A DNA stretch of 64,000 nt. Source: Dacryopinax spathularia. Lineage: Eukaryota; Basidiomycota; Dacrymycetes; Dacrymycetales; Dacrymycetaceae. Shown here one piece after another: positions 1-14,683 of the stretch; the stretch's first letter is position 1, and each line of letters begins with the position of its first letter. The notes under the pieces were generated by a model. It was not told the DNA's origin, searched no databases, and saw only the letters and a program-made list of their open reading frames with translations. The DNA lies in the NCBI GenBank assembly GCA_037974965.1, contig JBBPFI010000011.1, positions 496,001-560,000 of the forward strand. The letters run 5' to 3'. The position numbers and the translations under genes are program-made.

Positions 1-35
1 TTTTGTGTACGTGGTAATGTCGTGTTTTAGCAGGC

Positions 36-52
36 GGGGGGGGGGGGGGGGG
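36..52. repeat. Poly-G run of 17 bases
   Basis: An uninterrupted run of 17 G, followed after one A by another short G run. Such tracts slip during replication and sequencing, so the exact length is uncertain. It lies downstream of the first minus-strand gene and codes for nothing I can see. Confidence 0.9.
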
Positions 53-187
53 AGAGGGGGTTATATCGAAGTGGAACTACGCACTGAGGGGAACAGTTTA
101 TGCATAGAAAAGATCGCTGTCGTATTTTGTAATGACATTTGGTTACGCAGCGATTAAATACTCCGAGTGAAATAAAAAGAAAGGAGC

Positions 188-2115
188 CTAAGGAGTACAG
201 TTGACAACAAATCCGGCGAGAGCGATCTTCTCGATTTCTTTGAAGCGATCCATAATCCGGTTTGAGGTAGATTTATCCGCATGTTCTGCCAAATCATTGA
301 TGTCATCGTGTATGTCATCGATGAATCTCCCGATTAAACGAAGAAGGCTGCGGTCTGATCGTGGGGTGAGTTTTGGTTGGTCAATATAAAAGAAGCACAT
401 TTACTAGTTGTGATGTCGATCCTGTCGTCCCATCCGCTATTCTTTGGATCGGCGAGCGCTTCAACGAGTCGGGTTACATCCGTTCGGGCGGTAAAAAAAT
501 GGCCGAAATGATCGATGCATAACTGCTGGAGCATAGCAGCGTGTTCCGACTCGGTCGGAGAAGGCGGGTGGGGGCCGTAGGGCAGGATGGGGGAAGGTTC
601 GATCTTGACTTCCGGAGAATGTGGCTTTTCTACATCATTTACGTTCGACTCGGTCCGACTCCTTGTTAATTCTGCGCTGTGTCCTTCTTCATGATCTACG
701 GGAGGGTTCTTGTGTTCTTCCTCACGCTCTACGGGATGCGGCGGTGGGGATGAAGAAGGGGGTGTGAAAGGACGCGAAAGCCACATCTCGGCGTTGGACA
801 TTTCTGTCAACGGATCCGCAGCAACCGTGATCGGGGAATGTACTGATGGCTTTGGGTTGTGACTGTCTCCATCCTATCAGACGTTTAGAGACGTCGTTGG
901 AAGTACGCCATCTACGTGCTTACCAAGGCAGGACAATCGGTAAGCGGCTGTGCGTTTTCGTATTCGTGAGATGATGGAAGAACTTCTGTGCCATATGTTT
1001 TGGTAGCGTTCGCTTCTTCAGCGATTGGACCGTGCCCGAAGGATTCCATTGCGCCTGAATGATCCGCTTCCGGACTTTGTAGCGGCACATGATGAAATGG
1101 CGGGTCAGAGGTCTTTTCGCAGTCTGACGGTGCGTTCGGGCCGGCCGGAGTTGATGTAGGTTCTTCCCCTTGGTCTTGCTCGCCTGCGGCGGGTACATCT
1201 TCTTCTTCATGCCTGTCCTCACCGTTTCTCGTGGATGTTATCGAATCATCAATGGGAAGATCGTCTTGGCGATGTACGGCCGAAACGTCGGCCGGGGGAA
1301 CGTGACGACCAGCAATGCGCCTATCGACGGCGTCCGCGGCAGGATAATATGGCACTTCACCGCCAACGACGTCCGCAATATCTTCCGGGGAATGAGTGGA
1401 AGGACCAGTGGTAGATATCACTGTAACTTTCACGGTTTGAAGGGCGGTGTTTGCAGAGTTGGTTGGATTTGCCGCTTCTGAAGTAAGGAGCACGGAAGTC
1501 GGAGGGGAAGCCGGTAGCTCGACACCGGCGTTGTTTCCTAGAGAACTGTTCCCGTGCTCACCTGTGTCTTCATCGGAAGGATGATTATCTTCGTGATCAG
1601 GTGAAGAAGGCACACCCTGTCTTTAGCGTAAGAAAGATGAATGGGAGGCACAGAATGGACGTGCCGGTGGCGAGCTGAGGATTTCCGAAGAAGATACAAT
1701 GGGAAAGGAGGTGCTAGGAGTTCGCAGTATACCCTTTTGGGGAGGATGTGCATTCCGATTGCTAATTCGTCTCAAACGATCTTCTTCCTCTTGTAGAATC
1801 GCTCGGTATGCTTTATACTCTTCTTCTTTGTCGTCCAACCACGTTCCTTCGCCTACATCGAGAAAGAGCTCCCTTTGTTTCTCAGTCAATGCAGGGTACA
1901 GGTCGGGCAATTGATCTACGCAAGCACGGACGGTGTCCTGCGAAGTCGTTAGGTCAACCGTTGAATGTGTGTAGCGTACTCACGATATGGAGGTTAACTT
2001 CGTTTTCTTCGCGATGAGCCCAGATGAAGTTCTGACTCTTCGTGGGTAGTCTGAGCTCAGCGAATACGTCCCGCAGTTCCTGTTCAGTAACGGGTTTCCC
2101 TTGCAAAGTGTACAT
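188..2115 (-). CDS. Orphan spliced gene, unknown function
   Basis: No family recognised. A spliced gene fits: ATG at 2115, just after an in-frame stop, with a first exon starting MYTLQGKPVTEQEL. A GTGAGT intron near 1934-1981 leads into an acidic helical exon (DTVRACVDQLPDLYPALTEK). A further intron of about 80 nt leads into a long low-complexity acidic, Pro/Ser-rich middle section (about 1613-925). The last exon ends IALAGFVVNCTP and is joined in phase by a GTAAAT intron near 360-403. The join between about 810 and 925 could not be resolved in phase. The ends look folded and the middle disordered. It lies beside two other orphans and a Helitron, so it may be lineage-specific or transposon-associated. 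Confidence 0.5.
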
Positions 2116-2383
2116 CGTCGTAACGGAGGAAGATGCGACCGTTCCTAAGTTAGCCGAAACACGGGATGAACAATACTATGAAAGCATCCGTTTTTGTATC
2201 CGTCGGCTGACGTACGCGCTGGCCCCACCCTCGACGAAAACGACTCAGACAATCATCACTCGGTCGTTCATCCTTTGGCAACGACGACCATATATCGCTT
2301 ACGCAGCCTCGAGTATTACCCTGTTTAAAATCGCCGCAGACATTTCAAACCACGGCAGACCACCGCTGTTGGCGTGAATTTGT

Positions 2384-3058
2384 ATGTACATTCCATTTAC
2401 GAGCGACATTGACGGCTCATTTAGTTTCACGTTGCAGAGCATCGACATGGAAATCAAGTACGACAAGATTACGCTGAAACCTTCACCCAAACTCGCAGAC
2501 GCATTGGGCCGGGATTGGTACGAGGCGAATGCCGCCAAATTGGAATGGGAGATAGACGTCGCAAAGATAGGGCGGTATAATGTGGTTGAGTTGGCTAAGC
2601 AGGTGCGACATCTCTCGTCTAAGCGTAATATTTTCGCTGATGTGTCCGTAGATGACCAACTGCCGCAAGGAGTTCTTCGAAACCATTGACGAGGATCAAA
2701 TTGATCTCCTCCCACCTGAACTTTACAACTTCCCTTTCGCGATGGAGTGCTCAACCGGCAACGGGCGCGATGTTGAGGTCAAAGAACCGGTACTGGATCC
2801 GGAACCTCGCGTCCCGGTGCTCAGCAAAGGTCTCGCTGGTACGCCAACTACCTCGAACGCGTCCATTAGCTAATGATCATAGCACGCGGATTTTTTGAAG
2901 ATATTCAGAGGACGGCGTGTGATCTTGGGAAGATGACAAAGGAAATTATTCTCGACTACAACCTTGACAAGGTTCACGTGGTGGAGAAAAAGTTGAAAGC
3001 GCTGGAGGAACTTGTCATGCTCGGAACTTGGACGACCATTGTTAGGAGGGATATCTGA
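2384..3058 (+). CDS. Orphan spliced gene, about 190 aa, unknown
   Basis: No family recognised. Three exons join in perfect phase: 2384-2602, 2652-2829 and 2883-3058, with introns of 49 and 53 nt. The first has a GTGCGA donor and the second ends after a GCTAAT-like branch point. The product starts MYIPFTSDIDGSF, has an amphipathic middle (ELAKQMTNCRKEFFETIDED) and ends in a charged helical section rich in Lys and Glu. An upstream exon is possible, because a stop lies two codons before the ATG. The maintained frame suggests a recently active gene. It is divergent from the gene at 188-2115, whose start is about 270 bp away. Confidence 0.5.
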
Positions 3059-3198
3059 GCTAGCGGATTGTACTATTATCCCCGTTTGATGTTCGGTTGA
3101 AATATGCTTCAATAAAGCATTGTTATGCGTCCGTCGGCGGTCTGTTTTTACCTAAGCCGCGGAGGTCTACTTTTACTATATACAAGATGCGACAACCC

Positions 3199-4461
3199 TC
3201 ACGACTTTACGTGAGCGATACCGCGCTTCCGCTTGGATGGGGAAGGACCTGCACATAAGTCCCGGTTCCGAATGGGGGAAGTACTCTTAACAACCGGTTC
3301 TAGAGCGACTATCAGGTCGATTGGCTCCACGGCGACAACAGTCTGCTGTTTGTCCTGGAAGTTGTATGCGCGGAACATGAACTTCGCTTTCACAACCGCT
3401 CCTTTCAAGCTGTCCGACCATTTTTCAGGAGGAATAAGAGTTCCGTGTCGATCCCACGCAGGGAGAGGAATGGGCCTGTGTGTGTCCTTGATATTATGAA
3501 GATGCCAGACCACGTCGGGAGCCACCTGCCAGCCATACCAGTCTTCTTCCGGATTATATTCAGGACCTACTTGGGCAGTCAACCAAGGAACGAAGAAACG
3601 GTAAACCCACCCACCAGTCGATGCTCCACTTTCCTCGTCCGTCAAGGAAGTTACACCGCGGGTGGGTATCTTCTGTACAACACTCAGACTAACGGACTTT
3701 CCCGGAAATAAACCGGGACGAACCTCGAACAAGGGCCACGTAAACCGCAACCCAGATCGCTTTACGGACGAAACCAGTTCGTATCCATCCCGGCACGCGG
3801 ACGCTTCAACACGTTTGAGGTTATCCATCGCCCGAGCATACAAAGAGGCGAAAGGCTCCGCATCGGGGGAAACGAGGTAAGCAGAGGCCTTGTGTTTTTG
3901 GAACGATGGTGATTTAGAGTTCCCCGGTTCCCAGCCGCCGTCCGGCGTGAGCGCAAACCAAGAAGGCGATATCATGCCAATAATCATGATATGAGCCGGT
4001 TCATCGCTGTCGGAGAGACAATTGCCGACTCCTTCGACATACTTCCACGATAAAGACGACAGCGCCGTTTCGTCGGCCAGATTGTATCCTTCATCGAGCC
4101 AAGCCAGAAGCGCATTCAAGCGAGAAGACGTAGCCGGTTCGATATTGGTTTCACTAGTTGGCTCGGGGGATGCCGTTCTCTTCGAGATGGAAGTCGCGTC
4201 CGCATGCTTCTCGATAACGATCGAAGCGGCAAGTTCCCCGCGACGCGCTGTCGGTGTCGCAACAGCGACCGGTGATGAGACAGTACTTGGGAGGGGATCG
4301 ATAGCGGAGGCGGTCGACTTCGTATGTTGCGCGATTTCCGATATTGCGTCCGAGTTTTTCGCATTGACCCCCATATTCGACTCGTTACCAGCCGGAGAAG
4401 AAGTCATTTGAGGTTCCTCAGACGCCTCTGTATGGCCACGCGCCCGAGTTCTGCTAACCAT
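3199..4461 (-). CDS. Orphan single-exon gene, 420 aa
   Basis: One uninterrupted frame of 420 codons from ATG at 4461. About the first 110 residues are Ser/Thr/Ala-rich and look disordered, starting MVSRTRARGHTEASEE. Residues about 115-400 look globular, with many Trp and aromatic residues (for example EEDWYGWQVAPDVVWHL). The end is basic (SPSKRKRGIAHVKS), like a nuclear signal. A beta-rich stretch close to the end (KAKFMFRAYNFQDKQQ) could belong to an OB-like fold, but this is a guess. It lies about 870 bp upstream of the Helitron gene on the other strand. It may be Helitron-associated or an independent lineage-specific gene. No function is assigned. Confidence 0.6.
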   Translation of the reverse strand: MVSRTRARGHTEASEEPQMTSSPAGNESNMGVNAKNSDAISEIAQHTKSTASAIDPLPSTVSSPVAVATPTARRGELAASIVIEKHADATSISKRTASPEPTSETNIEPATSSRLNALLAWLDEGYNLADETALSSLSWKYVEGVGNCLSDSDEPAHIMIIGMISPSWFALTPDGGWEPGNSKSPSFQKHKASAYLVSPDAEPFASLYARAMDNLKRVEASACRDGYELVSSVKRSGLRFTWPLFEVRPGLFPGKSVSLSVVQKIPTRGVTSLTDEESGASTGGWVYRFFVPWLTAQVGPEYNPEEDWYGWQVAPDVVWHLHNIKDTHRPIPLPAWDRHGTLIPPEKWSDSLKGAVVKAKFMFRAYNFQDKQQTVVAVEPIDLIVALEPVVKSTSPIRNRDLCAGPSPSKRKRGIAHVKS

Positions 4462-4577
4462 GGGATGTCAACAGTTGGGATGATGAAAAGTGGAGACTCG
4501 GGCAGGAGATACTTCGAATATACGAAGGGCGGATGCCACACTGTCGTCGAAAGGGGAGTAATTTATATACTCATTTT

Positions 4578-4953
4578 TCAATCGACGAAAATATAGGAAT
4601 CGGCCGAAGAAGATCGACCTTGAAGTTCATCGTACGTCATTGTGTAATAAACATCGGCGGATATTTCGGAGAATGTCACATTATTGGGAACAGATGTAGA
4701 AATTTCAAAGAAAGGGAGTGAAGGTGTTGGTAGTTCTAGGCGAACGTGGGATAAAACAATCCACGCTAATTGACCGCAAGGCACCCTTAATCGCACCGGG
4801 GCTTCGGAAGCGACAGGAAAAAAGACGTGATCCGACCGAATCGAACCACTTGGTAGCGAAGAAGTTCAGAAAGTTGTCGAATGCGTAAATCAAACACTCG
4901 CCCGCATCGAATGTAGACACACTAACATTGTAGCCCATCAAATTCGTCCACAT
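4578..4953 (-). other. Possible small gene or gene fragment
   Basis: Two overlapping minus-strand frames look protein-like. One starts MWTNLMGYNVSVSTFDAGE. The other runs through LRVPCGQLAWIVLSHVRLEL and ends SSSADSYIFVD. They could be exons of one gene, but I found no donor/acceptor pair that keeps phase, so it may be a decayed fragment. It fills the gap between the 420-aa orphan and the Helitron. Confidence 0.25.
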
Positions 4954-5329
4954 GGCGAACGATGATATCCCGGTGAACAGCCTACTTCACATTAGCGTTT
5001 TATACCCATACCCACGCCACGCCATTGGTAACGTACTACGGACGTAAGTGCAGACGTAAAAGTCCGACGGTGGGGAAGTTCTATCAAGCAATCGAGCAGA
5101 TCATCCCTCAACGAGGGAGGTATCGTGGTTCCTCACTCACTACGAAATATCCAGTTTCTTAGCTTATAACGATGATCGGCGCCATGGGAAATGTCCAGTG
5201 GATAGAAGCTACAATTATAATTTACCTGATCGAGATTAACGGTAGTCAGAAAAAGGCACCAAGGTCTGCCAAAAGTAGCCGACTTTGAACCGCCTTGTAA
5301 CCTTCCTCTTCAAAACCTCAGTATTACGA

Positions 5330-8300
5330 ATGGCTTTATTCGAGCGACTTACGGTGGACGAAATAACACAAGCGCTACCGAACGTCAAATTTTCTCGAGC
5401 GGCCAAGAGGAATAAACGAAGACTTTTACAGGAGGTGAACGCGTTGCCCGATGGGATGAAGGCAACTCTCGAAACAATGGCAAGCCAAGCTGAGGATCGA
5501 CGAAACGACGCATTACATAATAGAAGGCTCGCGAAGCGGCATCGACGAGCGGACACCGTCGGCGAGGATAACGTATTTTTGCCTCCGTTCGGCAGCTCAG
5601 GAACACGGGAAGGCGACAAGTTCATGGAACCGCCAGGGATCGATGACATCACCGCAGCAGAGAGATTATTTCTATTGTCCACATCTAACGACTCACTTCG
5701 GTCGGCCGTATGCTGCAGCTGCAGCGGAGAGTTCTTCGCACGAGAAATGGAACAAACACCCTTCGACGCAATTCCTAACGTCGATCGATTGCGACCGACG
5801 AAACACCACGTCGGACATAATGCCAATCTTCGTGACGGCAAACTTCTATCTGTCGCCGCCAAAGAAGGGCATTTAATATGGCTTTGTCAACAATGCATGA
5901 AGGATTTGAATTCTGACAAGGTACCCATGTGGTCTCTCGCAAACAACATGTGGATAGGAGAAGTACCTTTCGATCTCAAGGTGTTGACGTTCTCCGAAGC
6001 GATGTTGATCGCGCATCACTACCCCAAAGTGTACCAGTTTACATTATTTCCGAAGCAAAAGCGGCGCCTGGGTTCGTTGGATCCGGACTCGTTTTCTAAA
6101 GGCATGCGGGGGAACGTCACACTCTACTCAATCAGTCAAGATGAAATCGCTGGCATGCTTATCGGAAACTTGTTTCCTCGACCTCTCCTTCTGCTATCAT
6201 CCGTCATTGCTGTCTCATTCATCGGCTTGATGAAGCTAGAAGATGTGAAGAAGCATTGGCTACAAAAAATAAAAGGTTATCCAGTTAAACTAAGAACGTT
6301 TACGGTTCGACAAACGGTCGTTTTGCGAGCGTTGCAGTGGCTCCAAGCCAACAATAAGTTCTACCGGGACATTGATTTGACGTCGGAAAACGCCGTGCAA
6401 CGAATAACTGCACTTCCCATCGACGACGTGCCATCAGAAGTACTAGGAGTTATTCGAGAAGACAACGAGACAACGCCTGTCGAACGCGAGAACGACGCAT
6501 ATGATCCAGAGCGGTGTGAAGAACAAGGAGGTATGGTCATGTTACGATAAGATTGTCATCTTCTAATTGAAGGTATAGGCGACGCTGAGGAAGACACCGT
6601 GGTGCCTTTGAGATCGCTCGGCATGCAAGACACAGATCTAACTCGAGCGACAGCACACGAAATTCTCATGCATGCATTATCCAACCTCGACGAGCATTCC
6701 AAAGAAGGTGGATACGCGGTGCGCCATAGTAGAGAACCCGTTAACGACTTTGGAAGAAGTCGCGGCGGAGATTCGCCATCGACTACAGCCAAGAACCCTC
6801 TAGCGGCCGCCTTTCCACTACTGTTTCCTTACGGCGAAGGCGGGCCGGAAGATGATCGTTGCAAGCCTTTGTCTTTTACGGAACATATGCGGTGGACCAT
6901 GAGGTATCACGATCGACGATTTAGAACGAACAATACGTGGATTTTCTCGGGATTCGGCATAATACAAAAGCGGGAAGCATTGTCGTCGGCATTCATTCAA
7001 ATGAAAAATTCCGACTTCAAGAAGGCATCCAATCTCCTCGCATCCATCACTCTCGAGCAACTACATGCGGCAGCACTAGAAGAAGAACGTGATGGAACAT
7101 GCAGCAATCGTGCGGTTAACACGTTAAAGAAACATCTACGTGCGGTCAGCGGACGAGTGATGGGATCAGATGCGGTCCGTATTTCGCTCAGGAGTCAAAT
7201 TTGGGGAACCGCCGTATACATGAACCTGCCGAACATATGGTTTACAATATCGCCTAACGACCTGCACGACCCGGTAGCGCAGATATTCGCGGGTAAAGAC
7301 ATTGATATGGACCGATTTATTCAAGATGCTGGACCGGATAAAAATACACGGGCTCAATCCATCGCAAAGGATCCGTATGCCGCGGCGAAGTTCTTTCAGT
7401 ACATCATCGGATCGATGTTGAGATGTTTATTCCGAGTGGAGCGAGTTGGAGGCAGTGGTGTAAATGTAGTGAGCCAAGGCGGACGATATTTGGCACGAAG
7501 GAGTGGACATAGGGTGGAATCCACGCCGGGCATTCTTGGAGAAGTCGCGGCGTACTATGGACCGGTCGAAACTCAAGGTAAAGGAACACTGCATTGCCAT
7601 TTCCTAATCTGGTTGAAGTACGCACCGAACCCTGGAGAAATGAAAGAGCTGCTATCCGACGGGATATTCCGAGATTGCGTCATACAGTATCTGAAACAAA
7701 CAATCTCCGGGCATAAAGAAGGACTAGAACCCGAACATATCGACAAGATCCCAAAGTCTTCCGAGGTTGCCTACTCCAGACCACCAAACCCAGATTCGGA
7801 GGATTACATACAGAAAGCATCGCATATGGAAGCAATTGTCGTCCGCAATGCGCAATTGCACACCTGCTCAACTGACACATGCCTAAAGGCAAATCGATAC
7901 GGACACATGAAATGTAAGCGAAGAGCACCGTTTCCAACATCGCCAAACTACACATTGACCGCCAACGGCGCGTGGGCGGTCACGCGCTTGCATCCCTTCT
8001 TGAACTCATGGAACCCCGTGCTCGCTCGGACCATGCGCTGCAATCACGACCTGAAGTTGCAAACAAACGGAGCGGAAACAAGAGACGCGATGTGGTATTC
8101 TACTTGCTACGCTCTAAAAAAACAAGGAAAGTCCTACGACATTTGTGGATCACTCGCCAAAGGTTTGGCCTATCACTTCGAGGACGGACGGTACAAAGAA
8201 GATATGCTGCACAGGAATCGGTTGATGCTTTACCGTTGCTTCAATGTGCTCAACCGAGAACAAGAAAAAGCCGCGAGCCAATGTGTGGCCTACATAATGG

Positions 8301-8403
8301 GCTGGGGTGACGTGTGGCAATCCCACAACTATGTCAAAATACATCTAAGAGCGTTGGCATGGGAGCTCATGAGACACTTCCCAAACATTCGCGTGGCGGA
8401 CAG
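5330..8403 (+). CDS. Helitron Rep region: DUF6570-like plus HUH endonuclease
   Basis: N-terminal part of the Helitron transposase, which nicks and rejoins DNA at the element ends. ATG at 5330 (MALFERLTVDEITQ); an upstream exon is possible. The stretch with MWSLANNMWIGEVPF (about 5925-5970) is typical of the DUF6570 segment in basidiomycete Helitrons. A 42-nt intron at 6531-6572 (GTATGG donor, CTAAT branch) restores frame exactly. The Rep domain follows: the HUH motif is the His-Cys-His of GKGTLHCHFLIWL (codons 7592-7600). The tyrosine motif is WYSTCYALKKQ near 8093-8125, followed by the family's AKGLAYHF. A second intron, 8404-8462 (GTAAGC donor), leads to the helicase part. Both introns look functional. 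Confidence 0.9.
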
Positions 8404-8462
8404 GTAAGCAGTAAGTTTAGCCATGGACACACGTCGAAACTTACCTATTTCGGAATATTAAG

Positions 8463-11059
8463 GAGGAAAACGTCAACTCCCGTCAACGCATCAACGAGTC
8501 AAGAGCGGTCAATGGACACGGCAACAGTAGACACGAGCATCGATCTCGAGCATCAAACAGGGAAAGAGGTAGAGGACAGCGATGAATACCTCATCGAGGC
8601 AAGTAGAATTTCCCGCGAAAGTGACATAGCTCAAACCATTCTAGGACCCTCTGAGGTTGGAGAAGAACACCGATGGAGTGTTAGCCCTCGAGACCAGTCA
8701 ACTAGAACAATACCTCCACCGCGGAAGTTCTATGACGGACTGGAACTTTTTAGAATTTACCGTCGAATCTTACGAAGAGAAAATTATCGGTAAATCCGAA
8801 TCCGAGCCGAAGAAGTTAAGGCGAAGCCGGTGCGAATATCTCGATGGTTACAAACACGCAACCACAAGAAGACGAGTAATCCGCCAGCCAGATCATAATA
8901 CACTACCCAGTCTGGACGGCCAAATTTTCCCAAGGAACGATGTCGAAGATGATCTGGATTACTATTACGCGTTTTCCTTGATGCTGTTGAAGCCGTGGCG
9001 GCTGTATACCGATCTCCAAGGGGACGCAGCCAATTGGGAGGACGCCTTTGCAATTTTCCTTAGTACTGCGACGACCCGGACACAGGATATACTTCACAAT
9101 CTCCAGTATTTCCATGAAAGCAAGAACTCCACAAGAGAAAGAGATTCTGCGGAATTGCGGCGGGGGAAAGACGGCGATGACGAGCCGAATAGGATTGACG
9201 AGACCAACTCGTTAGCCGGCAGCGATGTTCTTCGTCAGCTGCGAGAGTACTACGAACAGCTGACGGACGCCGATTTTCGCTATATAGAAGAAAGCCATCT
9301 TTCAACCCGTGACGATCGACACGGTGAAGAAGCCATCAACATTGCTAAAGTTGCGGGTGTCTTTCAAGACGGCGCCGCACAATGGGATGTTTCGGACGAG
9401 CCTCGACAGGCTGCTACAGCAGAGACGCTACGCACTTTAAAAACCTGGCAAGAAATGTTGTGGAAAAACGTGGAGAATAACATCGCTGAGCGAAATATAC
9501 ATGTGAGACATTTTCCAACGGTGGAACGCACCGAAGATGTTCTCAGACAGATCCACGGCGGCGATCTGGATGTGGATTTTGGTTTAGGGAACGGCATTGA
9601 GGCGGCCTCCGTCAATGAACTGAAGACCGAGCAAAGAAGAGCGTACGATATAGTGAAAGACCACGTCGAACAAACGTTCAATGGCCGACGACCTTGCCAG
9701 TTACTAATGGGGCTATTCGGAGAGGGAGGTACAGGTAAATCGAGAGTCATCCAAACGGTCACCGATTTATTCAATACACCGATACGGAAGGGTACGTTAA
9801 TGAAGGCTGCATACACGGGCATCGCGGCATCACTCATAGACGGCCAAACATTACATCGACTATGTTTGATTCCCGTGAACAAACGGAAGAACTTCAAAAC
9901 ACCCGCGGATCGTTTGGCGCAAATATGGGGCACAATACAATACCTGATTATCGACGAAATATCTATGGTCTCAAAGGAATTTTTCTATGAGATTTCCTTA
10001 GCCATAGGAGTCGCAAAACTCGCATCGAATCCGAATACCCCTGTCGACCTGCCATTCGGTGGAATCAACGTCATCATTGCAGGCGACTTTCACCAATTCC
10101 CTCCGGTCACAGCAAGAGCCAATTCAACTTTGTATTGCCCCATTAACCTCCTTCACGACACACCTGAAGAGAAGATCGGACGACAAATATATGAGCAATT
10201 CAACACCATCATAATTTTGAACGAACAATGCCGAATAGAAGATGAATACTGGATGAACTTCCTCAAGAGAGCAAGATCAGGACTCTGTAATGAACAAGAC
10301 CTGCACATGCTTAACGAAATCAATCTCGCCGAAAACAACGAAGTGCTAGACATGAAAGACTGGGAAGACGCCATCCTTGTGACACTGAGGCACTCAGTTC
10401 GAAACAAATGGAACACACACGCCATTAAACGACATTGTCGTTCCCAAAAGGCAACATTATACTATTCCAATGCGTCTGATATGATACGCGGAAGAACTCT
10501 CACTAACGAAGAACGCTACCAAGTTGCAACGAGATCGCAATCGAGCAAAAAGAACAGCCAAGGTGCAGGCGGATTACCAAGTCGACTTCCTCTTGCTATA
10601 GGGATGGAAGTGATGGTCACATTGAATGTGCAGACGGACATGGACATCGCAAATGGTTCTCGGGGTCGCATTTTCGACATCATACTGCATGAAAATGAAC
10701 AAGATTGCACGTCGCGCCGAAACGAACGCGAATTGGCATTTCCCCCAGCATGCGTACTAGTCGAATTGTACCGAACTAAGGCCAAACAACTGCCTGGACT
10801 GCCCGAACGCGTACTACCCATAACTCCCTGCAAGAAACAATTCACCATACCTGGTGCAAACGGGAAACATCAAACCGTGACGCGGATGCAATTACCAATT
10901 ACTCCGGCATACGCATTCACGGATTATAGATCGCAAGGTCAAACAATCAGCAAAGTTATTGTGGACATAGGCAAACCCCCAACCGGAGTGATAACAGCGT
11001 TTAACGCTTACGTGTCGCTCTCAAGAAGCAAAGGAAGATCAACGATTCGACTTCTTTGA
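8463..11059 (+). CDS. Helitron PIF1-like helicase region
   Basis: C-terminal helicase that unwinds DNA during Helitron transposition. SF1 motifs are all visible: Walker A GEGGTGKSR (about 9718-9745), Walker B LIIDEISMVS (about 9947-9975), GDFHQFPPV (about 10083), and the C-terminal TDYRSQGQT and YVSLSRSKG motifs (about 10918-11035). The exon after the 8404-8462 intron runs in one frame to about 8655, then the conserved sequence (SQLEQYLHRGSSMTDW) continues in the next. No intron of workable length fits, so a small indel is likely. The frame stops with TGA at 11057-11059, yet family-like sequence (SLFTRHASEYLRREDARLEH) continues in frame to a TAA at 11218-11220. The TGA could be a single C-to-T change. 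The copy is young but probably not fully active. Confidence 0.88.
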
Positions 11060-11373
11060 TCATATGACGTATCCCTCTTCACCCGGCACGCAAGCGAATA
11101 CCTCCGTCGGGAAGACGCACGACTAGAACATCTGGATCGTCACACGAAAGAATGCAGAAGCGCGACCGCGGCCGAATTTACCCACACACCACCACATACG
11201 ACTATCACATGTTCGGAATAATCTCCTATCAGATAAAAATAGTACGCAAGGATGAACAGTCAAGCGTCCAAATTACAGCCATAGGAACACATAGACCAAA
11301 GCGTAGACAGAGACAAACCAAAGAACCCGCAAGATACAATCCAACTTTAACTTATTGCCGCACGCAGAACTTC

Positions 11374-13504
11374 TTAACTTCCCTCTTGGACTTTGCTTTG
11401 ATCAAGGTCGGCGTGACCAATCTCGAAATATCCGCACAACTGTTCCACCACAACGTTGGAAGCCATAAGGTTGCTCCGGACCAATCCAGCCTCGGAGATG
11501 ATCTCATCACAGCGCTCGACTGCCTGGGCGAGCTTGAACTGAAGCTGGCGATACAATAGCGCTGTGACGACTTATGAGGTCACCGTCTGCGTCGCGACTG
11601 AAAACCATACCGTGATCGATGTAGGAAGACCCGATAACATCGTCTCCAGTTGATTCCAACAATCTCGAACGCTTCATGGACGAATCCGACAACTTTCTAC
11701 CTTTGCGCTTGTTACCGCCTCCTGTTGTCTTCTTCGAGGATGCTTCAACTGCAGCAGCTAGTTTTGCGTCTAATAACCAAATGTGAGCAATTATCGAAAG
11801 CAAGACACGTACGAACCCCTTTGTAAGGAACAGGTTATGTTAGATGGGCGGCATTGATCACAACCATATCCAGCTTTTGCACTGTACTTGTTTGAACCGC
11901 TACAACGAATGCGCGCACTCTCTGGCACTCCTTCCCTCTTCTGTTTCGCATACTTCTTCATGCACCTCTCGCACTACCAATCCTTAGCTTAAAAAAGGCA
12001 AATACAAAGGACAGGGAACCACTCACCCATGTCTGCTGACTATCCCGTGTCGGACGAACGATAACCTTAAAATAGTAAGTAAAACATAGCAAGAGATAAT
12101 CCGTCGAAAAAGAAGAACCCACCGCACGGTCGGGGGAATGTAGCGACAGCGAACGATCCGCGTTTGGAGGGGAATGCTCGCTTCCAACCAACCTAGGAGC
12201 AGTCTAAGGAAGAAGTAATAAAAACCATAGTCAGGAACCTGCGCTGAACACTCGGCCACAACAAAAGACCCGCAAAGCTGTCAAACAAACGCACATTGAG
12301 ACTTCGCAGACGGGACGAGGACAACTTCTGGATTGCGGATAGCTTCGCAGCACGTAAGGGCGGAGCAACGCGCTAAACATCGACATATTGAGTGATCAAT
12401 ACACATGCGCCCAAATGGCACAATCGAGACAGCGTACCAAAGATGACCCAGCGTCCGCAGGGGCTGATGTCGACAGCACATCCCCTGAACGAGAAGAATC
12501 CACAGCAAGAGACTCAACCGCCGAGGAAGGCTCGTCCATCGCCAAATCTAAATCAACCGCGGCCGAAGAACTTCCACCATATCGCGGCGAAACAATCACC
12601 TAATAGACCATAAACCGAATCAACCAGAAAACAACGAAGTCCACGTACATCACCTTCTGCTGTACCGGAGGGAACATGCACCGCATCAATTGGTCCTGAC
12701 GCAAATTGATGCACCGCCAGAGAAGCCTGCACGTGCGTCACAACCCATAATCATAAAGATCACCACAAGATACCAACATCATGGCGACCATCAGAAGATC
12801 CGGAAGAAGACGCCTCAGCCGCCAAACCCTCAGCACGATCCTCGCCATGAAAACTATTCCTGCCGCCACCATATGACTCCGCAGCGGCGTCTCCCTCGAC
12901 AGATCGGTCAGCCACGACGGATGGACACAATAGCTTCGAAAAGTCAGCGAAGATCGGCGACGACGAAGAACGCACGCACGACTTTCCCCGAATGGGGCGC
13001 AATATCATGTGACGAAGTAGTTATGCCTGCCTCGTTGCGGCCAGCGGAATCACCGGTCACATCTACAACCGCCCCAAAATCCCAATCAAGAGAAACAGGG
13101 GTTAATTTCGATTAACAAAGAACGTCACGACAAAGACAACAAACTCACCCTTCCTCTGTGCCGCCGATCCTTTGTTTGCGGCTTCGTCGCTCCCCAATTT
13201 CCACTGCATCGTAACACACCACAACGGACCCATGAAGTCCCGCAAAGCCTGCGGAAGGGAATCCAGACGGGACGGGTGGGCACAAACAACCTTATCAACG
13301 GCAGACTACAAACCCGTCAGCCAACAAAACGTACAATGAACAAGACGGACGAACCTTCGAAAGAACGACGGCTTCCGGATCCACCCTGAGCACCGAGTCC
13401 ATCCACGATGGACCTTGAGACACCTCCAACAGCACGCGAAACAACCGCTCCGCGCCATCCAAATCATCTAGAGGACCACGAGCGACGCCTTCGGGCTCCG
13501 CCAT
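11374..13504 (-). CDS. Orphan multi-exon gene with Cys-cluster (zinc-cluster-like) domain
   Basis: A spliced gene of at least eight exons. ATG at 13504 (MAEPEGVARGPLDDLDG), TAA at 11374. Several junctions keep phase: the GTTCGT intron near 13355, GTACGT near 12640, GTGAGT near 12020, GTTCGT near 11795, and GTATGG near 11610. Exons between about 12300 and 12400 are uncertain. The key exon carries CERCMKKYAKQKREG, then a Cys, then GYGCDQCRPSNITCS, giving C-x2-C-...-C-...-C-x2-C-x5-C. This resembles fungal zinc-cluster DNA-binding motifs. A Lys/Arg-rich nuclear-signal stretch (NKRKGRKLSDSSMKRSRL) and a C-terminal helix (LLYRQLQFKLAQAVERCDEI) follow. A transcription-factor-like role is inferred. 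It lies tail to tail with the Helitron helicase, 154 bp beyond its likely true end, so it may be cargo. Confidence 0.6.
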
Positions 13505-13722
13505 ATAACTGCAACAAAGTTATCGAAACGAATAGATAGAAGGTAGATAGAAAGAAGAAGGTCAAAGGAAGACAGCCAGGCGCTTGTCACCCCATCCACA
13601 GTATAAAGCACCCTGAATGGGCTTACCCAATCAAACGCGCGGCGCTCGGAAGCATTATAACATCCGGATCCAGCAAATAGCCGGAAGCCGAACCACGGTC
13701 CGACCATGGTCTGCTCAACCGG

Positions 13723-13730
13723 CTTATATA
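13723..13730 (-). promoter_or_regulatory. TATA box of the Cys-cluster gene
   Basis: TATATAAG on the minus strand, about 220 bp upstream of the ATG at 13504. It fits a core promoter for the Cys-cluster gene and supports its direction. Confidence 0.4.
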
Positions 13731-14032
13731 ACCAAATACACCCGGAAAGAGGCCCCGACAAAACCCCGAGCGACCAAACTTCTAGGGGAGCAAAGACGCG
13801 CGAACCCGGAGAAGGAGATCACCACGTACGAAGATTCGAGGTCTGCACACAACAGAAGAAGTTATCCTCCGGGGAACTTGTGACATTCACCGCGTAAGAA
13901 AGCCAAAGTTGCCAGAAACGTGCGAACATTCCACCCAACCTACAGTAGTAAGTATAAGTGCACAAAACACGAGCCGATGGAAGGACTACACATCGCACCT
14001 TCGTGTGGGATTTTGTTGCGGGTTTTTGTTTA

Positions 14033-14180
14033 CATTACATAAGACAACATTACCGTGACATATCCAGTACCCTTCCACTGGGAAAAAATTGGTTCCGACC
14101 GATGTGACATATAAGACAACAAAGATGACATTACCCTGACATTTCCAGAACCATTCCACTGGCAGAAATTAGGTCCCGAG
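14033..14180. repeat. Two imperfect ~72-bp direct repeats
   Basis: The phrase ATAAGACAACA starts near 14039 and again near 14111. Each copy continues with a variant of CATTACCGTGACATATCC, then CCATTCCACTGG-like sequence and a GGTTCCGA/GGTCCCGA end. The second copy has a short insertion. It may be a minisatellite or the end of a non-autonomous element. Confidence 0.6.
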
Positions 14181-14683
14181 TCGTTGCTGACGAACCCTCC
14201 TCTCTCGAGCTAGGGGATACCCGTCTCGTAAGTTTCACGCGAGAATCGCACCTTAAGCGTCTTGTGAGACTGTCGGCTACAACAGAACAAAATATGGACC
14301 TCGTGGTCGTGGGCGGACAGTACTAGTCTTCGTGGCAAAAGTGAGGCCCCTGCATCTACGCGCGACCGAGCCGGCGGTGTTCGATGCTGGACGTGCATGT
14401 CAGCTGGAATGACGCCCCCGGAGTGTCGCAACAATTTCCAGTCAGCCTTCACCGGCCACTCAAGTAGGGCGCACGAAAGAGTGTAAGGGCTCGTTCCCGG
14501 AAAGTGGTTTCCTTCTGTCTATTCTCGTAGAATGCGATTACGGTGCTTCTAAAAGCTTCCGTCACCAAGGCCTTAGCCCAAACCCCGATTTTGTTGACCC
14601 TTGTTTCATCAGCGCAATCTATTCATCGGCGGCGACGTTCCTAACCTTCAACAGCGATATCCTAGTCAGACAGCATACGGCAA

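Follow-up and report, generated by a model that had tools for sequence, protein, structure and literature searches.

In the HELPO1 Helitrons of Pleurotus ostreatus, the genes capA, capA2, capB and capC, described there as being of unknown function, lie downstream of RepHel and are called captured; relatives of capB adjoin RepHel in a few other basidiomycetes (Castanera et al., PMC4289320). A second point of reference is Helitron2, defined in its description by asymmetric terminal inverted repeats, of which one occupies the 5′ end, where the first base is T, and the other lies ~20-30 bp from the 3′ end (PMC3627910); an inverted orientation of RepHel is reported in some Helitron2 elements (PMC5148889). 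Lengths of up to 14 kb are cited for fungal Helitrons (PMC6431247).

Here we describe a gene, gene C, in a 64,000-nucleotide stretch of Dacryopinax spathularia contig C11 (the window), where a sequence-only reading had noted a cysteine-cluster gene beside a Helitron. Like the Pleurotus cap genes, gene C has no known domain, lies downstream of RepHel and is situated inside a Helitron; unlike those genes as they are described (PMC4289320), it forms one lineage in five families, has a defined six-cysteine cluster and has relatives upstream of RepHel. The cap genes are its closest precedent, compared by description only, and could belong to the same family. The elements that carry gene C resemble, when read on the minus strand, the Helitron2-type elements (Helitron2, PMC3627910; FoHeli1-5 of Fusarium oxysporum, PMC5148889) in their asymmetric terminal inverted repeats; so read, they also share an inverted RepHel with some known members and, with FoHeli3, the presence of an oppositely oriented extra open reading frame (ORF), which in FoHeli3 is a single one described as found only in Helitrons (PMC5148889). 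They differ from these elements as described in their length of 18-21 kb, their several conserved extra genes and their terminal sequences, the likeness being judged by the ends. In the open literature searched, we found no account in which fungal Helitrons regularly include a zinc-cluster gene.

Gene C lies inside a Helitron-like element

The genome comprises 29.2 Mb in 24 contigs, and a Pfam profile search located Helitron_like_N matches at 45 places in it. The presence of DUF6570 and the shortness of the introns are what one would expect of a basidiomycete. Seven of these, the window element included, have a long-form match (profile positions 2-191, 723-726 bases); we refer to the seven as the clan and to the other 38 as the remaining Helitron hits. 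The clan falls into five families, the element on C14 being a near-copy of the window element and those at C1:1869k and C2:2764k forming a near-copy pair (99.2% identity, 19,277 columns).

Across 18,570 columns, from ~4.35 kb before the window to position 14217, the C14 copy is 98.28% identical to the window element (280 differences in 18,530 ungapped columns of a global alignment), and the similarity breaks off at both element borders. Short derivatives on C5 (266 bp, at 764.3 kb) and C17 (342 bp, at 431.0-431.3 kb) retain the two element ends, and a third derivative with both ends, reached via the C17 copy, lies on C3 (366 bp, at 2065.3-2065.7 kb). The second copy on C14 and the two ends kept in the short derivatives thus place gene C within the element, with its start 0.7 kb from the border and its reading direction inward. 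As had been read from the sequence, it lies tail to tail with the helicase, whose conserved ORFs on the plus strand end at 11056-11218. The gene also travels with other copies of the Helitron: copies that end before it were looked for and none was seen.

The C10 element has the same ends, at C10:499447 and C10:481365, ~18.1 kb apart. The C2:2764k element measures ~21.3 kb, with a 5′ end recognised by sequence only; the C1:1815k element is delimited at its 3′ border only, and no 5′ border was found for the C3:1583k element. The middles of the derivatives on C5, C17 and C3 (266-366 bp) are foreign to the window element and partly common to one another.

Table 1 Features of the window element and of gene C; positions count from the first letter of the window.
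Feature	Position	Strand	Remarks
Helitron-like element, part in window	1..14217	+	starts ~4.35 kb before window (near C11:491650); total ~18.57 kb
Minus-strand ORFs (gene B?)	337..2175	-	1626-2175 conserved in C10 and C1:1815k
Plus-strand exon-like ORFs (gene E?)	2378..3055	+	conserved in C10; last one also in C1:1815k
Gene D, ORF of ~420 aa	3202..4467	-	in 7/7 clan elements; next match elsewhere E 0.28
RepHel ORFs	5279..11218	+	DUF6570 5279-6547; Helitron_like_N 6551-8404, HxH at ORF residue 348; PIF1 helicase 8645-11056; conserved last stretch from 11060
Gene C, predicted 508 aa	11374..13504	-	ATG at 13504, stop ends 11374; 11 predicted exons
Gene C predicted exons	13504-13355, 13305-13149, 13062-12980, 12933-12774, 12695-12649, 12599-12438, 12372-12295, 12203-12027, 11973-11817, 11769-11611, 11570-11374	-	
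Exon 2 of gene C	13149..13305	-	motif ..LRxxMGxxW..; strong in C10 and C1:1815k, weak in other copies
Exon with six-Cys cluster	11817..11973	-	
Exon 10 of gene C, basic stretch after cluster	11611..11769	-	NKRKGRK...; NLS-like by eye
Last exon of gene C, C-terminal part	11374..11570	-	helical-looking by eye
Two 58-nt direct repeats	14041..14179	+	81% alike, 81 nt apart; between gene C start and element end
Element end ...CCCTCCTCTCTCGAGCTAGGGGA	14185..14217	+	contains CGAGCTAGG, reverse complement of CCTAGCTCG near opposite end

Element ends and Helitron class

Rep (HUH) and a PIF1-type helicase are both present in the carrier (Helitron_like_N, E 4e-30; PIF1, E 7.7e-23; HxH motif), which places it in the Helitron superfamily. 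The canonical Helitron1 ends (5′-TC and CTRR-3′) are absent on the RepHel strand: there is no TC where the copies begin agreeing, the exact first base not being fixed, and the shared sequence continues with GGGA past CTAG. On these ends we did not assign the element to Helitron1. Read on the minus strand, it has a T followed by CCCCTAGCTCG at one end and CGAGCTAGGG ~29-34 bp from the other, which are asymmetric terminal inverted repeats as in Helitron2. Judged by their ends, the clan elements would be Helitron2-like, and RepHel would then be inverted. An endonuclease domain, the mark of Helentrons, was found in none of the three large RepHel ORFs at E 1 (Pfam), and for these ORFs we set the Helentron class aside.

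The sequence CCTAGCTCG occurs in all seven terminal regions compared, from five families, and no 9-mer exceeded 3 in 30 shuffles; as CCTAGCTCG had been noticed before the terminal regions were chosen, the shuffle count is better taken as a record of the repeat than as a test. In the window element a GC-rich hairpin folds at the RepHel 5′ end, and the other end forms no clean terminal hairpin; the C3 element has a hairpin, perfect by sequence, at the end that corresponds to the non-folding one. The pattern of this hairpin is weak as a marker, since it occurs at two places in the genome, the C3 element end included, and its reversed control at one. An exact copy of the C3 element's terminal hairpin lies at C2:1398562, perhaps in a non-autonomous relative.

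Gene C encodes a conserved six-cysteine cluster

The coordinates first given for gene C, as a multi-exon gene with intact splice phases, hold: the 11 predicted exons join in frame across ten GT-AG introns of 40-91 nt, and the C14 copy keeps all ten splice-site pairs and the whole frame. The exon borders are predicted from sequence, some of them being a choice among alternatives. The cysteine motif had been read as C-x2-C followed by C-x2-C-x5-C; the cluster is there, with six cysteines of which the third had been missed and a last spacing of x6 rather than x5 (C-x2-C-x19-C-x13-C-x2-C-x6-C). It is beyond chance, because its exon is 63-81% identical in four other families and AG directly precedes the first Cys codon in 17/17 Cys exons examined (15 without near-copies; the four C1:1869k places, near-copies of those on C2, and the locus on C9 described below were left out). 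The Lys/Arg-rich sequence reported next to the cluster is the basic stretch of exon 10, and comparable stretches follow the cluster in C10, C1:1815k and C3.

The remaining parts of the protein have a narrower range. Counterparts of the C-terminal part are present in C10, which served as a profile seed, and in C1:1815k (unseeded, E 9e-12); none was found in C2 or C3. A profile of exon 2 made from three copies (window, C10 and C1:1815k) matched upstream counterparts in C10 (E 1e-5) and C2 (E 0.001), with weaker ones at E 0.1-0.8, and a second profile, with two weak matches as seeds, matched the C2 and C3 downstream genes (E 9e-5 and 0.0014) and, upstream in the window element, an ORF (E 5e-4). 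With a library of 4,491 segments, these matches are suggestive only of an exon 2 motif common to other cysteine-cluster genes of the clan.

In fungal proteins with a Zn(2)-Cys(6) binuclear cluster (PF00172), the first loop is ~6 residues long. Gene C shares with these proteins the order of the six cysteines and the basic residues nearby, and differs from them in a first loop of 19 residues and in the lack of a significant profile match: PF00172 gave no match to the spliced gene C protein at E 1, and listed three of ten domain copies, the best at E 3.7, which is not significant. Across the genome PF00172 matches 24 places at E 0.001 (45 candidates scored), none of them a Cys-cluster place of the clan. 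The gene C protein matched no Pfam or NCBIfam family, and a scan of IMG/VR with the Cys domain returned no relative. A PDB profile search with the cluster listed nine sequences up to E 10 and no significant one; the Zn2Cys6 proteins among them, LEU3, an ethanol regulon factor and LAC9, align with the second half of the cluster only (E 0.8-2.6) and are outranked by viral envelope chains (E 0.27) and HscB (0.48), which are unrelated. A single-sequence fold model of the Cys exon (pLDDT 62) consists of a helix, a strand, a short helix and a strand, a secondary structure that would suit a two-part cluster; the model matched no PDB structure. With neither a significant Zn2Cys6 profile match nor a solved-structure match, we therefore propose only that the cluster may work like that of a Zn2Cys6 protein and do not file gene C in PF00172. 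The zinc-cluster likeness seen in the sequence-only reading stands for the order of the cysteines and falls short in the first loop and in the profile match.

The cysteine domain is nearly confined to the clan

A genome search with the domain of one upstream gene as query found 22 places, counts of Cys-domain places being lower bounds throughout: 21 in or beside the seven clan elements, and one at C9:345081. Searches with the whole gene C protein and with the C1:1869k/C2 downstream domain added no place outside the clan, and a search with the C9 sequence returned itself and clan places only. There are two places each in the window, C14, C10 and C1:1815k elements, four each at C1:1869k and C2:2764k, and five at C3:1583k, where three upstream copies, 12-23 kb from RepHel, presumably belong to the element and one of these, at 1595k, is without the sixth cysteine. 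In every one of the seven elements, one or more copies precede RepHel on its own strand and one or more follow it on the opposite strand; the upstream genes, like gene C, read inward. None of the 38 remaining Helitron hits is less than 20 kb from a Cys place; the nearest is at 22 kb (on C14, outside the element border) and the rest are more than 34 kb away. Within this genome, the Cys domain is nearly confined to clan elements, and this key domain of gene C is common to genes on the other side of RepHel.

At C9:345081-345248, more than 800 kb from the only Helitron hit on that contig, all six cysteines are in register (E 0.17); this locus is possibly a host relative or a relic.

In an unrooted tree of 15 domains and 53 columns (C14 and C1:1869k were left out as near-copies, and C9 for its long branch), a branch with support 99/98 separates the five distinct downstream genes, those of the window, C10, C1:1815k, C2 and C3, from all the other domains. 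Compared with the window copy, the domain is 81% identical in C10, 71% in C1:1815k, 65% in C2 and 63% in C3, and Rep ORF identity is 72%, 69%, 56% (measured on C1:1869k for the C2 family) and 55%, respectively; the two rank the families in the same order. Gene C has the same place and strand in all seven elements and forms one lineage, and is therefore an inherited gene of the clan rather than a recent host capture; that it is carried by and inherited with the clan we regard as nearly certain.

These data bear directly on the other possibility raised from the sequence, that a Helitron captured a host transcription-factor gene. Helitrons do capture genes, the cysteine order and basic stretch resemble those of fungal transcription factors, and the weak C9 locus, with six cysteines in register, is the sole candidate relative elsewhere in the genome; a single lineage fixed in place and strand through five families, and four protein queries that found no close copy elsewhere in the 29 Mb genome, make such a capture unlikely. 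An old capture, before the clan radiated, could still have taken place. The best-matching basidiomycete Helitron paper calls its extra genes captured (PMC4289320, as there described), and gene C appears instead to have descended together with the transposase in five families.

Apparent constraint on gene C resembles that on the transposase

Between the window and C14 copies, gene C differs at 12 of 375 synonymous sites and at 10 of 1,149 non-synonymous sites (pN/pS 0.27, Fisher p 0.0023), a test that comprises 22 changes in one pair of copies. For the same pair, pN/pS is 0.27 for Rep (p 0.0012), 0.22 for the helicase (p 1e-5), 0.32 for gene D (p 0.034) and 0.43 for the DUF6570 part (p 0.086); two antisense control ORFs are also below 1 (0.39 and 0.47; p 0.23 and 0.19). 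The minus-strand ORF at 915-1622 showed no constraint (pN/pS 1.2), and an upstream ORF at -3935 to -3513 has six non-synonymous changes and no synonymous one. Gene C is apparently under constraint similar to that on the transposase.

Such constraint, in a core gene, would also be expected of a single-strand-binding or replication partner of RepHel, the role of RPA-like proteins in plant Helitrons, where extra genes of this kind are known according to one account (PMC5148889); gene C has no RPA family match in Pfam and carries a six-cysteine cluster instead, and we consider this role improbable.

Proposed role of gene C

The explanation that we favour, and think probable, is that gene C belongs to the core of a single clan of large Helitron2-like elements with several genes, as an accessory gene whose DNA-binding or regulatory role we infer. 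It takes up the better half of the sequence-only reading, a Helitron with its own putative regulator: the gene is inside the element and in every clan element, and the regulator part is interpretation. Its product is probably a DNA-binding nuclear protein, as its sequence suggests. The six-cysteine cluster would bind zinc, its cysteines following the order found in a binuclear cluster (C-x2-C / C / C-x2-C / C) with longer loops, and the basic stretch would direct the protein to the nucleus and to DNA. It would then bind element DNA near the ends or promoters, and regulate element genes or help to handle the ends. That gene C regulates the element or binds its ends is a tentative proposal, to which its position, its conservation and the basic stretch point. 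A wider reading is rather doubtful: that a Helitron clan of 18-21 kb encodes its own DNA-binding proteins, a new six-cysteine family with inward-reading genes on both sides of RepHel, for dedicated end or promoter control of rolling-circle transposition.

An extra element-encoded gene with possible DNA binding, and repeats near the element end, also recall VANC of VANDAL elements, and gene C might by analogy be a sequence-specific anti-silencing protein that shields the element from host silencing. VANC is, as described, likewise an element-encoded protein besides the transposase; it belongs to another transposon superfamily, and the likeness is one of analogy and not of sequence, with no homology claimed, so we give this role little weight. 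That gene C is a decaying, functionless passenger kept by chance in two young copies, which are indeed close, with 280 differences in 18,530 aligned bases, is very improbable: pN/pS is 0.27, AG precedes the cluster in every exon examined, the Cys exon alone aligns at length at the DNA level between the window gene and C10, and the conservation of the cluster across families speaks strongly against it.

If gene C is, as we favour, an accessory gene of the clan, a control protein for rolling-circle transposons becomes testable, and the six-cysteine domain becomes a marker for finding such elements in other fungi.

Other genes of the element

Gene D matched no Pfam or NCBIfam family, and its fold model has a pLDDT of 32. 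The Rep ORF had no match among PDB sequences at E 1, and for DUF6570 by itself we found no paper in the open literature. The RepHel ORFs are presumably exons of one gene. The DUF6570 and Rep ORFs are separated by a stop codon (window 6520-6580) that falls inside a 42-nt GT...AG stretch; this stretch keeps the frame and may, by its sequence, be an intron.
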